Shown: piece by piece, positions 57,927 through 64,000 of the stretch | Numbering within the stretch: position 1 is the stretch's first letter | Layout of the letters: each line of letters begins with the position of its first letter | Origin: Acidimicrobiaceae bacterium | GTDB taxonomy: Bacteria; Actinomycetota; Acidimicrobiia; Acidimicrobiales; Aldehydirespiratoraceae | Assembly: GCA_028819005.1 (NCBI GenBank) | Contig: JAPPMP010000002.1 | Span: 117,033-181,032, forward strand | DNA: 64,000 nucleotides | Direction: 5' to 3' | Made by a program: the position numbers and the translations under genes | The notes under the pieces: model-generated | Told to the model about the DNA's origin: nothing | What the model saw: only the letters and a program-made list of their open reading frames with translations | Database searches by the model: none

Positions 57927-58667
57927 ATGCCCGTAGCAACATTTGGGGCCTTGGGACTCATCGCAGAGATCCCCGCCGCTCCCGGGCTGGTTCCGATCAT
58001 CTACCTGCACGGCTGGGGACGCTCACGGAACGACTTCGCTCAGGTCGCGGGCCAGAGGCCCGGAATGCTGCTTGATCTGCCGGGATTCGGTTCATCGGCT
58101 CAACCCCCGGTTGCCATGGGCTCAGCCGAGTACGCAGCCGAGGTGCTTGCGGCAATTTCCGAATGGACCGACTCCGAGAGGGTTCTCCTTGTCGGTCACT
58201 CGTTCGGCGGTCGGATCGCGCTGCAGATCGCGGCGACTGCCCCACAGTCTGTTCGTGGTCTGATCATCGCTGGTACGCCGCTCTTTCGGACCAAGTCGCA
58301 CTCACGACCACCTCTGGCGTATCGAGCGGCAAGGAGGCTTCACAGACTCGGGCTCGCTAGCGGGGCCCGCCTCGAGTCCGCCCGGAAGAAATACGGCTCG
58401 GCCGACTATCTGGCTGCTTCCGGGGTCATGAGGGAGATCTTGGTGAAGGTCGTAAACGAGTCCTACGAGACCGAGTTGGCACAGATCCGTTGCCCGACCG
58501 CGTTTGTGTGGGGTCGAGCCGACAGCGCCGCTCCGGTCGAAGACGCCAGACGAGCCCAGCAGATCGTGGAGGGATCGATCCTCGAGGAGCGGGACTGCGG
58601 CCATGACGTCCACCTTCAACATCCTCTGCTCTTCGTCGAGTTGATCGACCGGCTCGTGCAGCAATGA
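57927..58667 (+). CDS. Alpha/beta hydrolase coupled to Mur ligase-like gene
   Basis: A 246-aa serine hydrolase. The oxyanion region is YLHGWGRSRNDFA, the nucleophile elbow GHSFGG, the acid is likely Asp in VWGRADSAAPV and the His in DCGHDVHLQHP. The stop overlaps the start of the next gene (ATGA), so the two are translationally coupled. The substrate is unknown; the link suggests an ester or amide made or used in the same pathway. Confidence 0.85.
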   Translation: MPVATFGALGLIAEIPAAPGLVPIIYLHGWGRSRNDFAQVAGQRPGMLLDLPGFGSSAQPPVAMGSAEYAAEVLAAISEWTDSERVLLVGHSFGGRIALQIAATAPQSVRGLIIAGTPLFRTKSHSRPPLAYRAARRLHRLGLASGARLESARKKYGSADYLAASGVMREILVKVVNESYETELAQIRCPTAFVWGRADSAAPVEDARRAQQIVEGSILEERDCGHDVHLQHPLLFVELIDRLVQQ

Positions 58668-60202
58668 TTCCAGTCCTGCTTGCTGTGGCCGGCGCGGTGA
58701 TCTGGATGCCCAAGTGGTGGCGGGTCGCTCAACGCGAGCACTACCTGCCCGGCTCGGTGAACACCACGCTTTTTCGCTGGCTTGAGACCGCGCCCCTGCC
58801 AAACATGGGGCTTGCGCCGCTCGGACTCATTTTGGTGGTCGCAACGATTCTGTTGGACGGTTCGGCAAGACTCGGGGCACTTGCTGCTGTTGTTGTGATC
58901 GCCGCGATCACGCCAATCGGACTACCGCTGCGCGGCAGGACTTCCAAACTTCGGTTCACGCGGCGAATGAAGACCACGGCGGTTCTGTCGATTCTCTTTT
59001 GGGCGGCAGCGCTGTGGCTGCTCAGCGTCTTTGCAGCGACTTCGTCCGCCGCGGCGATCTGCTCATTGTTCGGGTGTGTCGCGGTTGACGCCGCTTTAAC
59101 CGTCGCCGTTCCTTTGGAGTCGCGGCTTGCCAAGCGTTTCCAAACAAGCGCCGAAGAGCGGCTCCGCGCGGTTGCCCCACTTGTGATCGCTGTCACCGGC
59201 TCCTACGGCAAGACCTCTACCAAAGAACATTTGGCAGCGCTACTAGGCCCGATTCGTCCCACCGTCGCCTCGCCCGCGTCCTGGAACAATCAAGCGGGTC
59301 TTTCACGGGCAATCAACGAGCATCTGAGTTCATCCACAGAAGTCTTCATCGCCGAGATGGGCACCTATGGCAAAGGCGAGATTCGCAGACTCTGCGGTTG
59401 GATCAAGCCGGAGGTCGTGGCGATCACCGCGATCGGGCCGGTCCATCTGGAGCGCATGGGTTCGATCGACAACATCGTCGAGGCGAAGATGGAGATCGCC
59501 GAGAGCGCCGAAACCGTTGTGCTCAACGTTGACGCTCCCGAGTTGGCCGAGCAGGCCGAACGGATCGCGCACACTCATCGGCTGATCCGCTGTTCCGGCA
59601 AGCGCGACAGCGTTGCCGATGTTCGGGTGTCAACAGACAACTCCGGAGGGGATCTGCGCGTCGACTATTTCACTGAGTCGTATCCGCTCGGCTCGTTGCA
59701 CGATTCGGTGCAAAGCTCAAATGTCGCGGTGGCCGCAGCTCTCGCCGTGGAGGCCGGTTTGGCGCCAGACCGCCTCGGAGCGCTCGTCGAAGGGCTCGAA
59801 ACCGGTGAACACCGGGCAAGTGTTTCGGTAACGGATTCAGGATTGACGGTCATCGACAACACGTTCAACTCGAATCCCGCCGGCGCGAGAGTGGCGCTGG
59901 CCACGCTGCTGGCTCGCAGTCGCGAGGGCAGATCGATTGTCATCACTCCCGGAATGGTCGAACTGGGAGACCAGCAGGAATCCGAGAATGCCGAATTCGC
60001 TCGGTTGGTCGTTGAATCCGGGGGTGAACTCGTCATCGTCGGGCGGACGAACCGCCGGGCGCTTCGCCGTGGCGCGTCGGCGGTTGGCGGTATCGTGATC
60101 GAGGTCTCAAGCCGTGATGCTGCGCGGGAGTGGGTTCGACTGAATCTGAGCGCAGGTGACGGAGTTCTCTGGGAGAACGATCTGCCCGACCACTATCCGT
60201 AG
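58664..60202 (+). CDS. Membrane-anchored MurF-like ligase
   Basis: Mur ligase family protein, 512 aa. The first 155 residues contain several hydrophobic segments (starting IPVLLAVAGAVIWM; then LGLILVVATILL and ILFWAAALWLLSVF), unlike housekeeping MurF. The ATP loop GSYGKTST is at 179-186, the Mg/Glu region EMGTYGKGEI at 231-240, and GPVHLERMGSIDNIVEAK carries the family His and the Lys that is carbamylated in Mur ligases. The substrate-loop equivalent is IDNTFNSNP. The next gene encodes a D-Ala-D-Ala ligase, so it may join that dipeptide to a nucleotide- or lipid-linked acceptor. Confidence 0.85.
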   Translation: MIPVLLAVAGAVIWMPKWWRVAQREHYLPGSVNTTLFRWLETAPLPNMGLAPLGLILVVATILLDGSARLGALAAVVVIAAITPIGLPLRGRTSKLRFTRRMKTTAVLSILFWAAALWLLSVFAATSSAAAICSLFGCVAVDAALTVAVPLESRLAKRFQTSAEERLRAVAPLVIAVTGSYGKTSTKEHLAALLGPIRPTVASPASWNNQAGLSRAINEHLSSSTEVFIAEMGTYGKGEIRRLCGWIKPEVVAITAIGPVHLERMGSIDNIVEAKMEIAESAETVVLNVDAPELAEQAERIAHTHRLIRCSGKRDSVADVRVSTDNSGGDLRVDYFTESYPLGSLHDSVQSSNVAVAAALAVEAGLAPDRLGALVEGLETGEHRASVSVTDSGLTVIDNTFNSNPAGARVALATLLARSREGRSIVITPGMVELGDQQESENAEFARLVVESGGELVIVGRTNRRALRRGASAVGGIVIEVSSRDAAREWVRLNLSAGDGVLWENDLPDHYP

Positions 60203-60217
60203 GACCGAGGAGCCAAG

Positions 60218-61312
60218 TTGAAGGCCGCAGTTGTATTCGGGGGGCCGTCGCCGGAGCACGACATCAGCATTCTGACCGGCCTGCAAGCGGCGCGGGTGCT
60301 GCGCGACGCGGGCACCGACACGAGCCTCGTCTACTGGACCAAGCAGGCGAGATTCGAACGGGCGCCAGTTGATGCGGAGGCCGGCGACTTTGCCGGGCCG
60401 GATCGAGAGGGCTTCACCTGCCTGGACTTTACGATTCCCGGTGGATTCGTCGAACCGGGGCGCCTGCGGAGCCGACCGCTCGACATCTCTGCTGTTTTGA
60501 ACTGCTGCCACGGGGGTCCTGGCGAAGACGGGAGCCTGGATTCGCTGCTTCGCCTAGCCGGCATTCGTGTTACCGGTCCTGGTGCGCAATCGTGCGCGGC
60601 CTCGATGGACAAATTGGCGACAACCGCAATCGCAGACGCGGTTGGTATCGACACGATCCCGAGCGTTCCGTTCGAACCCGGAACCGACTTCGCCGTGCCG
60701 TTCGATCCTCCCTGGGCGGTCAAGCCGAGGTTCGGCGGCTCGTCTATCGGCGTGGAGGTCGGCGTGGCCGATGTTGCGACCGTCGAGTCCTTGTCAAAGG
60801 TGGCTTCCGCACGCTCCGGCCTCGTGGTTCAGCCGTACCTCGACGGCTGGATCGACCTGAACATCGCAGTGCGCAGGTTCCCGGAGTTGCAGCTTTCAGC
60901 AATCGAAAGACCTTTCGCCGACGGCGTCTACGACTACGCCACGAAATACCTGTCGGGCGCAGAGGGCATGGAGTCTGCTCCCCGCGAACTGCCCGCCGAT
61001 CTACCGCCTTCGATCACCGAAACGATCGAAAACGCCGCAAAGACACTCGCCGCTGCTGTGCAGGCAACCGGGGCGCCGCGAATCGATTTTCTGTGGGACG
61101 GCGAGAACACCGTCTTGCTGAACGAAATAAATCCCATCCCCGGGGCGTTCGGAATGTACTTGTGGTCCCCCGTCGGAGTGGACCGAGCGACACTGCTCGC
61201 AGATCTGCTCCATGAAGCCGAGAGCCAGCCGGTGCATCCGGGCTCATGGAACGCGTCAAGCGATGGCGCCGCACTGCGAGCAGCCCGCGGCATAGCCGCC
61301 AAGCTCGCCTAG
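60218..61312 (+). CDS. D-alanine-D-alanine ligase-like ATP-grasp enzyme
   Basis: A 364-aa ligase. GGPSPEHDIS (8-17) is the N-terminal motif with the substrate Glu, CHGGPGEDG the first conserved loop, KPRFGGSSIGV the ATP-binding part and LLNEINPIPG the metal site. The omega-loop reads YDYATKYLS; Lys-Tyr at this place marks D-Ala:D-Ala specificity, not D-lactate. The start is TTG 60218 with GAGGAG upstream, 15 bp after the MurF-like gene. Confidence 0.88.
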   Translation: MKAAVVFGGPSPEHDISILTGLQAARVLRDAGTDTSLVYWTKQARFERAPVDAEAGDFAGPDREGFTCLDFTIPGGFVEPGRLRSRPLDISAVLNCCHGGPGEDGSLDSLLRLAGIRVTGPGAQSCAASMDKLATTAIADAVGIDTIPSVPFEPGTDFAVPFDPPWAVKPRFGGSSIGVEVGVADVATVESLSKVASARSGLVVQPYLDGWIDLNIAVRRFPELQLSAIERPFADGVYDYATKYLSGAEGMESAPRELPADLPPSITETIENAAKTLAAAVQATGAPRIDFLWDGENTVLLNEINPIPGAFGMYLWSPVGVDRATLLADLLHEAESQPVHPGSWNASSDGAALRAARGIAAKLA

Positions 61313-61344: not shown

Positions 61345-61941
61345 ATGGGCAGCCGAACAGCTCGTCTTGACAGCGGGCCTTGGAGTATTCGTTTCGCACT
61401 GGGAATGAAGGTCGCTTTGGCGCTCGCTTTCGTCGTTGCGTTGACAGTTCCGCTGGACCATCTCGAAGGCAAGGGGATGGGATTCCGCTTCCCGTTGTTC
61501 ATGCTTTCAGCCGTGGTGGTTCCCGCGGCTTGGCGGCGACGGTTCGATCCTTATCCTGCGACTGCAGACGTGCTGTTGGTGGCACCGTTCCTGCTCGACA
61601 CGCTGGCCAACCTCGTGGGTCTCTACGACACCTTCGCCGCAACCGACGATGTCCTGCACACCCTGAACTGGGTGCTGCTGGTGTCGGCCTTCCACGCTTG
61701 GCGATTCCGCCGAGCCGATTCGACAAGCGAGACGTCGAGAGCCGACGCCTGGCTCTTGGGTGCGGGCATCGGGGCCTTGGCCATCGTGGGTTGGGAGATC
61801 GCCGAGTGGATCGTGGCCGAGACCGGCGCGGGAGGCGGACTCTCGTTGACCTATGAAGACACGATTGGCGACCTTGCCCTGTCGACCGCCGGCGGCATGA
61901 TCGGATCCCTCCTCAGCATCCGCTACCTCAGCGAATGGTGA
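61345..61941 (+). CDS. Integral membrane protein, DUF2238-like
   Basis: A 198-aa protein with about five hydrophobic segments (KVALALAFVVALTVPLDHL; FPLFMLSAVVVPAAW; DVLLVAPFLLDTLANLVGLY; LLGAGIGALAIVGWEIAEW; LALSTAGGMIGSLLSI). Conserved-looking residues DDVLHTLNW and YEDTIGDLALS fit the DUF2238 (YjdF-like) pattern. I chose ATG 61345 with AGAGGG upstream. It overlaps the convergent mcrC by 14 bp. The function is unknown. Confidence 0.55.
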   Translation: MGSRTARLDSGPWSIRFALGMKVALALAFVVALTVPLDHLEGKGMGFRFPLFMLSAVVVPAAWRRRFDPYPATADVLLVAPFLLDTLANLVGLYDTFAATDDVLHTLNWVLLVSAFHAWRFRRADSTSETSRADAWLLGAGIGALAIVGWEIAEWIVAETGAGGGLSLTYEDTIGDLALSTAGGMIGSLLSIRYLSEW

Positions 61942-63130
61942 GACGATTCGCTTGGCTCGCGATCCAGTCGGCGGTTTGACTGATCTCGGCGGTCACGGAG
62001 TCGGGCGGGCCTGAGAGGTTGATAGCGCGGGTGTGGAGGAGCTTGCCGGCGTGGCGGACTGCAACGGTGCTCTCGGGCTCGCCACCGTCAACAAGGCAGT
62101 AGATCAGAACGCCCTCGGGTAGATCGAGAGCGGTGGTGTAAGCGAGAAGCTGGTAGTAATCGCTGTTGCGAGCTTTGGCGTCGGCGGTCAGCTTGTACTT
62201 GATGTCGGCGACATACACCTCACGACCTTGTTTGCGGAAGACAAGGTCAGGACGTATCGGCACTTGCTTGCGCACTCCCAGGTGAGACTTAGCCTGGCTG
62301 CGAACTTCGAGTCGCCCGCGAAGCGCCCGTCGGAGCCGCTGGGTGACGAAGTCCTCGAACAAACGGTTCATGTCGACCAGGAACGAGGACGCGGATCGGT
62401 TGCCGCGTCGGTCGACCAGGCTCAGGTTCTCCAGCAGGAGCCGAGCAAGACGTAGCGCCGGTTCATAGTGGTCGTTCAGACGAGTGAACAGCAACCGGTC
62501 CAGATCGTCAGGCCTAACGGGATCATCGGATACGTCCTCGAGGGCAACGACCTGTTGGAGCAACCGTCGGCGATCCTCGGCTTGGACTCCCGGCACACGC
62601 AGGGCCAGTCGGGCCGCCGCTTTCACGTAACGGTTCTCGAAAATGTCGGGCGTGTACTCGTCATATCGGCAAGCGACTGGCATAGGCACCCCCGCCTGGC
62701 GGAACTGGGACGCCACATCGACTCGGCCGCGCAACGCGACTAGACGTTCTTCTTCGGGTCGGTACGACCGCAACAAACCGCAGGCAAGCGTGTTGGCAAG
62801 CGTTCGGGCGTAGAACCCCACGATCGATGGCAACAGGTCTGCGTTGGTGGTGTACTCGAAGGATTCTTTTCGCCACGCATTGGGTGCGAGGCCCACCTCA
62901 AGCAGCAAGAAAAGGTTCTCGGGTCGAATCTTGGGACGGATCAGGATCCGTATGTCGTCAACGACGAGGGTGCCCACCATGTTTTGCGCTGTCAGCTTGT
63001 AAACGCCGGGATCGTCGGTCAGTTCAACGACAACCGCGCCGCGCCCGACAGCGCTGAGACGGCTCGCTTGACTAACCGAGAGCCGCACCGTCGTCGACTC
63101 GTACTCGCGGAGTTCGATCAGTTCGATCAC
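61928..63130 (-). CDS. mcrC: McrC nuclease subunit of type IV McrBC restriction system
   Basis: A 400-aa protein. The N-terminal part (KLTAQNMVGTLVVDDIRILIRPKI) is the McrC beta domain that contacts McrB; the C-terminal PD-(D/E)xK nuclease core is RPDLVF...EVYVADIKYK, with D, D and K visible. FLVDMNRLFEDFVTQRL is a conserved helix before it. It overlaps the mcrB stop by four bases. McrBC cuts DNA carrying modified cytosines. Confidence 0.9.
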   Translation of the reverse strand: MIELIELREYESTTVRLSVSQASRLSAVGRGAVVVELTDDPGVYKLTAQNMVGTLVVDDIRILIRPKIRPENLFLLLEVGLAPNAWRKESFEYTTNADLLPSIVGFYARTLANTLACGLLRSYRPEEERLVALRGRVDVASQFRQAGVPMPVACRYDEYTPDIFENRYVKAAARLALRVPGVQAEDRRRLLQQVVALEDVSDDPVRPDDLDRLLFTRLNDHYEPALRLARLLLENLSLVDRRGNRSASSFLVDMNRLFEDFVTQRLRRALRGRLEVRSQAKSHLGVRKQVPIRPDLVFRKQGREVYVADIKYKLTADAKARNSDYYQLLAYTTALDLPEGVLIYCLVDGGEPESTVAVRHAGKLLHTRAINLSGPPDSVTAEISQTADWIASQANRLTIR

Positions 63131-64000
63131 TCGCTCGTTGGTGTTTCACTCGGGGAATCGAGTTCGTCGGTCTCATGCTCAACGGCGACCAACTCGGTGG
63201 TCTCTTCGACCCCAGACTCCTCGCGATAGCGCTTCAAGACTTCGTTGAAACGAAACATGTCGATCTGCTCACTGATATCGAAGAACTGATCCTCAATGAA
63301 CGGCTCGATGTTGTACTCCCAGATTCGGCGAACAGCCTCTTCATCAAGGTTTTCTTGCATGAAGTAACTCGGTCCCAACAGAAGATGTGATCCCCCCAAT
63401 TCGTCTTTGAGCTCATCGTTCACCTGCGCGACCAGCTCCGCTACCCAGGTTGGCTCGCCCTTGTCTTCCAACCAGCGTTCTAGAAGGTCCTCAATCGGCC
63501 ACCGGTTCGGGAAGAACGGCACAAAGTGAAACCGGCGGCGGAGCGCAGCGTCGACCAAGGCGATCGAGCGGTCGGCGGTGTTCATCGTCCCGATGAACCA
63601 GAGGTTGCGCGGCAGCACGAACCCCTCGTCTGGTCGGTAGAGGGTCTGCACCGGTTCGTCGCGGTACTCGAACAGATAGAGCAACTCGCCGAGGACCTTC
63701 GGCAGGTTTGCCCGGTTGATCTCGTCGATGATCATGATGTGTCTGCGATCGGGTTTGGAGCGCGCTTTGTCGGCCATGCGCGCCAACGGACCCGGCTTCC
63801 GTCGATAGGTCAACGAACCATCCGCTCCTTCTTCGGGCCGGTAACCCTCGAAGAAGTCTTCATATGAACTAGAGGGATGAAACTGCACAATGGCTCTGCG
63901 GTCCGCATCGGGGATCAAGGCCTCCGCAAACTTTCGGGCCAAATACGTTTTGCCCGTGCCGGGCGGGCCGTAGAGGATCACCTGGCGCTTGTCCTTCAAC
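63127..64000 (-). CDS. mcrB: McrB AAA+ GTPase subunit (partial)
   Basis: The C-terminal 290 codons of McrB; the upstream end, with the DNA-recognition domain, lies outside the window. Walker A is YGPPGTGKTYLA, Walker B IMIIDEINRANLPKVLGE, and the sensor motif GTMNTADRSIALVDAALRRRF is the McrB NTxDRS signature. The domain hydrolyses GTP and moves DNA for McrC. The start is not in view; the TTG at the edge codes Leu in LKDKRQ. Confidence 0.92.
   Translation of the reverse strand, partial: LKDKRQVILYGPPGTGKTYLARKFAEALIPDADRRAIVQFHPSSSYEDFFEGYRPEEGADGSLTYRRKPGPLARMADKARSKPDRRHIMIIDEINRANLPKVLGELLYLFEYRDEPVQTLYRPDEGFVLPRNLWFIGTMNTADRSIALVDAALRRRFHFVPFFPNRWPIEDLLERWLEDKGEPTWVAELVAQVNDELKDELGGSHLLLGPSYFMQENLDEEAVRRIWEYNIEPFIEDQFFDISEQIDMFRFNEVLKRYREESGVEETTELVAVEHETDELDSPSETPTSE

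Follow-up and report, generated by a model that had tools for sequence, protein, structure and literature searches.

Three consecutive genes in a 64,000-nucleotide stretch of an Acidimicrobiaceae bacterium genome (hereafter the window; G000:C12:117033-181032 of a 3.06 Mb draft assembly in 52 contigs, 98% complete) encode an alpha/beta hydrolase, a MurF-type ligase with membrane helices and a D-Ala-D-Ala ligase (Ddl) (Table 1), and raise the question of whether such a set serves a pathway of its own, as an original prediction made from the sequence alone had proposed, or the synthesis of the cell wall. MurF and Ddl are textbook essential cell-wall enzymes and drug targets. Our analysis indicates that the cassette is probably the only MurF/Ddl module of the cell, a replacement working at the membrane, most likely on a lipid-carried stem. 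The open reading frames are as originally predicted and form one operon-like cassette: the hydrolase stop codon (TGA, 58665-58667) and the ligase start codon (ATG, 58664-58666) share an ATGA overlap, and 15 bases lie between the ligase stop codon (TAG, 60200-60202) and the Ddl start codon (TTG, 60218).

A second murF and a second ddl were looked for by whole-genome searches and in the dcw cluster, and none was found. The Mur_ligase_M search of the genome revealed six places, namely MurE, MurD, MurC, MurT, FolC and the window ligase, so that no other candidate for the MurF step was found in the assembly. MurT, which contains the MurT_C domain (PF08353), adjoins a GatD-like frame; MurE, MurD and MurC are encoded in the dcw cluster. 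As originally noted, this cluster is not near the cassette: it lies on a separate contig, C9, where the frames read in the order rsmH, pbp (penicillin-binding protein), murE, mraY, murD, ftsW, murG, murC, murB, ftsQ, ftsZ. Because mraY follows directly on murE, and murB on murC, the cluster has neither murF nor ddl. The window gene was likewise the only Ddl found; two weaker matches fall in frames of 1017 and 596 residues, which resemble carB and biotin carboxylase, names suggested by their length. An accessory second pathway beside ordinary peptidoglycan synthesis is therefore rejected for this genome, the cassette holding the sole murF and ddl found, and it very probably makes ordinary D-Ala-D-Ala-ended peptidoglycan. 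According to the original prediction, sole copies would make the module ordinary; the copies are indeed sole, but the second part does not follow, as the module is a distinct and widely spread replacement.

The distinctness lies mainly in the ligase. Pfam search identified Mur_ligase_M and Mur_ligase_C in it, while the N-terminal Mur_ligase domain was not found. The NCBIfam murF model TIGR01143 aligned over profile positions 58-398 of 418 with 181.2 bits, below the cut-off of 288.6; positions 1 to about 60, corresponding to the N-terminal domain that binds UDP-N-acetylmuramic acid (UDP-MurNAc), remained unmatched, whereas the canonical MurF proteins of the class were matched from position 1. 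This uridine-binding domain was absent from every membrane form tested; PF01225, which is weak as a sole marker, matched two of four canonical MurF and none of five membrane forms. The central ATPase domain of Mur ligases with its P-loop and core residues is kept, as is the C-terminal domain: G179, S180, K183, T184, E231 and H261, presumably the MurF core residues together with K275, are invariant in 68 sequences, and K275 is nearly so. The Mur core matched MurF structures (best Foldseek E-value 3.1e-21; VIA-align Z 36.2, root-mean-square deviation 5.0 over 367 residues), and a sequence profile aligned ligase residues 164-471 to 1gg4. In a maximum-likelihood tree of Mur cores all 51 membrane forms made one clade (support 100/97), apart from 19 canonical MurF. 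The named loci L143 and L147, which suggest Acidimicrobiia as the class, group with the window ligase there.

In place of the missing domain the protein carries about 170 residues that are helical in the AlphaFold2 model (mean pLDDT 92.3, pTM 0.90), with helices at 2-24, 31-42, 44-63, 66-82, 100-123, 126-135 and 137-170. From hydropathy and positive-inside charge five membrane passes are predicted, with the loops 22-43 and 83-99 and the Mur core facing the cytoplasm. The original prediction of a membrane-anchored Mur ligase unlike the housekeeping MurF is thus confirmed by five predicted helices and the lack of the N-terminal Mur domain. Four residues of the membrane domain (Q23, Y27, T99 and R101) are invariant in the 68 sequences, which come from several phyla. 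Searched alone against PDB folds, the domain gave 70 matches with E-values up to 10, the best being 0.53 and none convincing, which is not proof of a new fold; among 43 such N-terminal domains no Pfam family occurred in more than two, and none in the window's own stretch. Canonical MurF (TIGR01143; structures 4qf5, 4cvk, 1gg4 and 3zl8) and the window ligase have in common the central ATPase and C-terminal domains, the P-loop, the core His, Lys and Glu, a D-x-x-x-N-x-N-P stretch, the place in the pathway and, in Poribacteria, the slot between murE and mraY. They differ in the membrane helices, in the separate clade and in the C-terminus, which reads ENDLPD in the window ligase and has a KGSR-like end in canonical MurF of the class.

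The distribution of the two forms was surveyed in genome samples of the class and the phylum drawn by a tool, mostly drafts or metagenome-assembled genomes. In the class the two forms separated cleanly: the window ligase as query matched either over its full length (best E-value below 1e-50) or over the Mur core only, and the murF model either scored above its cut-off from position 1 or gave about 150-210 bits from around position 60. Among 198 class genomes, 91 had the membrane form, 99 had canonical MurF, none had both, and eight had neither complete, one of these (G183) containing a cut-off piece of the membrane form. A Ddl above the TIGR01205 cut-off was found in 94 of the 198 genomes and in none of the 91 with the membrane form. 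The dcw cluster agrees with this: murE stands directly ahead of mraY in all 15 membrane-form genomes, and canonical murF lies between the two in 10 of 14 canonical genomes, the other four belonging to the order of the window. In some canonical-MurF genomes of this order (G193, G106, G035 and G002) murF is located outside the dcw cluster beside ddl, possibly a step before replacement. Genus g44 holds both states, G009 having the membrane form and G166 a canonical murF in the dcw cluster.

The cassette itself is conserved. The membrane ligase and Ddl lie within 200 bp of each other in 48 of the 51 class genomes for which both are among the matches listed. Co-occurrence of the three families, which the original prediction had proposed to survey, exceeds chance: the hydrolase adjoins the ligase in 48 of 48 class genomes, and Ddl is within the fetched stretch in 44 of 48, as read from 49 loci (two of them in G034, with G196 counted once). 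The cassette is kept in all 10 loci read from genomes of 0.6-1.1 Mb.

The Ddl of the window contains both expected domains above the Pfam gathering scores (PF01820, 56.8 bits against 34.6; PF07478, 70.0 bits against 24) and scores 163.3 bits with the ddl model TIGR01205, below its cut-off of 245.65; many cassette Ddl proteins of other phyla score above it. The Lys-Tyr pair, which we take to be a marker of D-Ala-D-Ala specificity, is present (K243-Y244), as originally reported, and among the cassette Ddl proteins Lys is found in 43 of 44 sequences of the class and in 65 of 69 from elsewhere, and Tyr in 43 of 44 and 66 of 69. The enzyme resembles canonical Ddl as an ATP-grasp ligase with this pair and R288, D290, E303 and N305, and differs from it in the lower score, in HGGPGEDG for the usual HG..GEDG, and in linkage to the membrane ligase instead of canonical murF. 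A ddl-type gene beside a murF-type gene is also seen in VanA/VanG-type D-Ala-D-Lac or D-Ala-D-Ser operons, some of which include murF. A van-type resistance module was rejected, however, as no Van equivalog or exception cut-off was reached (the best score was that of VanG, 88.7 bits against 495), no vanH- or vanX-type neighbour is present, and the Lys-Tyr pair is kept; among the 216 Acidimicrobiales and 214 Actinomarinales assemblies of PMC8698665, no van-like genes are listed. On its own, the lack of a canonical MurF and Ddl would permit a wall without D-Ala-D-Ala, built on tripeptides, with the cassette serving another purpose such as stress or resistance. This explanation seems hardly tenable given the dcw cluster with a penicillin-binding protein, the intact Lys-Tyr pair and catalytic residues of Ddl, and the retention of the cassette even in genomes of 0.6-1.1 Mb.

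A sample of 296 genomes of the phylum showed the membrane form outside the class as well, in family f48 and in G325, which belongs to another family and is 100% complete. Canonical MurF was not found in the f48 membrane-form genomes or in G325, while the control, sister genome G276, has one (1 of 20 above the cut-off). A scan of named genomes revealed loci in Bacillota, Bacteroidota, Balneolaceae, Rhodothermota, Poribacteria, Acidobacteria, Synergistaceae and a small number of further groups. The best 80 of 584 confirmed stretches were read, and 50 genomes from these 80 were checked for MurF and Ddl; the sample is non-random. The hydrolase was found in 74 of the 80 loci, Ddl in 70 and both in 66; no constant extra partner was found among 20 cassette neighbourhoods scanned. 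No full-length canonical MurF was listed in 43 of the 50 genomes. Of 149 sampled Bacillota, 138 have canonical MurF above the cut-off, and nine others gave best matches of 3e-65 to 9e-78, in the range of the membrane form, with coverage shown for two of the nine. In Poribacteria (L101:720-11589) the gene order is pbp, murE, hydrolase, membrane MurF, Ddl, mraY, murD, ftsW, and this location of the cassette in the murF slot of a dcw cluster is the strongest pointer to MurF function.

Single loci deviate from the common layout. In L105 (Balneolaceae, G474) no hydrolase or Ddl was found near the membrane ligase, and no convincing Ddl in the genome (best E-value 3.6e-14). In one f48 genome the membrane ligase and Ddl are separated by a small frame on the minus strand (L081:2841-3311), presumably resembling arsenate reductase/low-molecular-weight phosphatase. 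In Aquibacillus (L108:7930-8649) the cassette is followed by a Peptidase_M15 gene, of the D-Ala-D-Ala dipeptidase/carboxypeptidase family.

The hydrolase has a catalytic triad at Ser92, Asp199 and His226 and a GSxDY signature at 157-161. Across 49 class and 73 other loci, Ser92 and His226 are kept in 122 of 122 sequences and Asp199 in 121, with one Glu; S158, D160 and Y161 of the signature are invariant in the same set. Its PDB relatives were only generic esterases and other alpha/beta hydrolases. Judged from these sequences, it is a catalytically intact, co-inherited partner of the ligase and a predicted serine hydrolase. As to its task, editing or trimming of D-Ala-D-Ala ends or of misincorporated esters is a guess, which we offer with reserve.

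Five properties come straight from computation: MurF and Ddl as sole copies, the missing domain, the membrane domain, a conserved cassette, and the finding that the membrane form and canonical MurF exclude each other. From them we infer that the ligase in all likelihood has MurF activity. D-Ala-D-Ala transfer at the membrane, already suggested in the original prediction, is probable. With regard to the acceptor, passages of PMC6085368 state that the uridine end of the precursor, which is absent from lipid II, is where the Mur N-terminal domain binds. Because the ligase has lost the domain gripping the UDP end of the soluble precursor, a substrate at the lipid stage (lipid I or lipid II-tripeptide) is the one towards which we lean. 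For an enzyme that lacks the uridine-binding domain, is fixed in the membrane and carries invariant residues on the cytoplasmic side, the simplest reading is thus that it acts on a lipid-linked tripeptide. A precedent is MurT/GatD, which, according to passages of PMC3266927 and PMC6085368, has lipid I and lipid II, but not UDP precursors, as its substrates for amidation, MurT having no uridine domain. The window ligase is similar to MurT as a Mur-type ligase without this domain and, putatively, in acting at the membrane stage; unlike MurT, it has no MurT_C, its cassette contains hydrolase and Ddl instead of GatD, the expected donor is D-Ala-D-Ala and not ammonia, and the genome has its own murT. 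According to PMC4987650, a stem of just two residues is enough for a substrate to be accepted by Bacillus subtilis MraY. Under the scheme that we propose, MraY, perhaps followed by MurG, would act first, giving lipid I- or lipid II-tripeptide; Ddl would make D-Ala-D-Ala; the membrane ligase would add it to the stem; and the hydrolase might proofread or reverse the addition. We give this order of events an even chance of being right.

Several points weigh against the cassette being a replacement that works on lipid-carried stems. First, the MurF and Ddl scores lie below the curated NCBIfam cut-offs. Second, the hydrolase is missing in six of the 80 loci of other phyla, some of them at contig ends, and may be dispensable. 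Third, no MraY position separates membrane-form from canonical genomes, and shuffled labels did equally well in 34 of 200 cases; this comparison is neutral or mildly against a lipid-stage substrate and gives no sign of a changed MraY substrate. Fourth, the membrane domain could be an anchor only. The last two points suit a chemically ordinary MurF that uses soluble UDP-MurNAc-tripeptide and is merely placed by its helices beside MraY for channelling, as do the MurF-like catalytic core and the ordinary-looking MraY and MurG kept in the genome. We regard this explanation as rather unlikely, though deserving attention: the uridine-binding domain is gone from the membrane forms tested, the invariant Q23, Y27, T99 and R101 exceed the needs of a mere anchor, and MurT, which also lacks that domain, works at the lipid stage. 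Finally, full-length canonical MurF accompanies the cassette in seven of the 50 genomes of other phyla (G470, G488, G512, G482, G478, G473 and G469), up to three more have weak or split MurF candidates (G475, G485 and G505), and eight of the 50 have a further Ddl match scoring at least about 200 bits. In the seven genomes a separate role of the cassette is possible. As a general account, the separate pathway of the original prediction, making a membrane D-Ala-D-Ala conjugate other than peptidoglycan, is nevertheless very improbable, since the cassette supplies the sole MurF and Ddl here, in the 91 class genomes and in most other cassette genomes, and takes the place of murF in Poribacteria.

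A membrane-embedded MurF was not found described in the open PMC literature, subscription papers and preprints being outside the search. The section of PMC12786226 on MurF trees of Erysipelotrichia mentions no membrane form, nor do the relevant passages of PMC11915815, a survey of Mur ligases. The name MurF is not new for such proteins, as databases may use it; what appears to be new is that one domain is missing, that a membrane domain is present, that the three genes form a cassette and that the two MurF forms exclude each other. By its sequence the ligase is predicted to work like MurF but lacks the N-terminal domain that defines the canonical enzyme. A membrane-embedded form without the UDP-binding domain, linked to its own Ddl, appears to have taken the place of canonical MurF and Ddl in many lineages, streamlined genomes of 0.6-1.1 Mb among them. 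If the lipid-linked tripeptide is indeed the substrate, wall precursors are not put together in the same order in all bacteria, and the textbook order would fail to hold for about half of an actinobacterial class and for scattered members of Bacillota, Bacteroidota and other phyla. Inhibitors of soluble MurF and assays with UDP-MurNAc-tripeptide would miss organisms with the membrane form. The membrane domain without a known relative and the always-intact hydrolase also deserve mention.

Table 1. Features of the cassette, with positions in the window.
Feature	Position	Strand	Evidence
Alpha/beta hydrolase, 246 amino acids	57927..58667	+	Pfam Abhydrolase_1, E-value 7e-20
Membrane-embedded MurF-type ligase, 512 amino acids	58664..60202	+	PF08245 and PF02875 only; TIGR01143 58-398; AlphaFold2 pLDDT 92.3, pTM 0.90
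N-terminal membrane domain, ligase residues 1-170, five predicted membrane helices	58664..59173	+	AlphaFold2 models, topology
QREHY motif, ligase residues 23-27, cytoplasmic side, conserved	58730..58744	+	Q23, Y27 invariant in 68 sequences
T-x-R motif, cytoplasmic side, conserved	58958..58966	+	T99, R101 invariant in 68 sequences
ATP-binding P-loop GSYGKT, ligase residues 179-184	59198..59215	+	Sequence, conservation
ENDLPDHYP, C-terminal signature of ligase	60173..60199	+	N505, D506, L507, P508 invariant in 68 sequences
Shine-Dalgarno-like GAGGAG before the ddl TTG start	60207..60212	+	Sequence
D-Ala-D-Ala ligase (Ddl), 364 amino acids, TTG start, K243-Y244	60218..61312	+	PF01820 and PF07478; TIGR01205 163 bits

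A plasmid-borne origin was rejected as a lead, since none of the 57 records of a plasmid search had 80% query coverage. Downstream of ddl, the window encodes a small membrane protein (61346-61941) that is not a constant member of the cassette in the class loci read; its frame, read from 61246, gave no Pfam or NCBIfam match. It is followed on the minus strand by genes that by eye resemble mcrC (61928-63130) and an McrB-type AAA ATPase gene (63127-63999), probably forming a modification-dependent restriction system.

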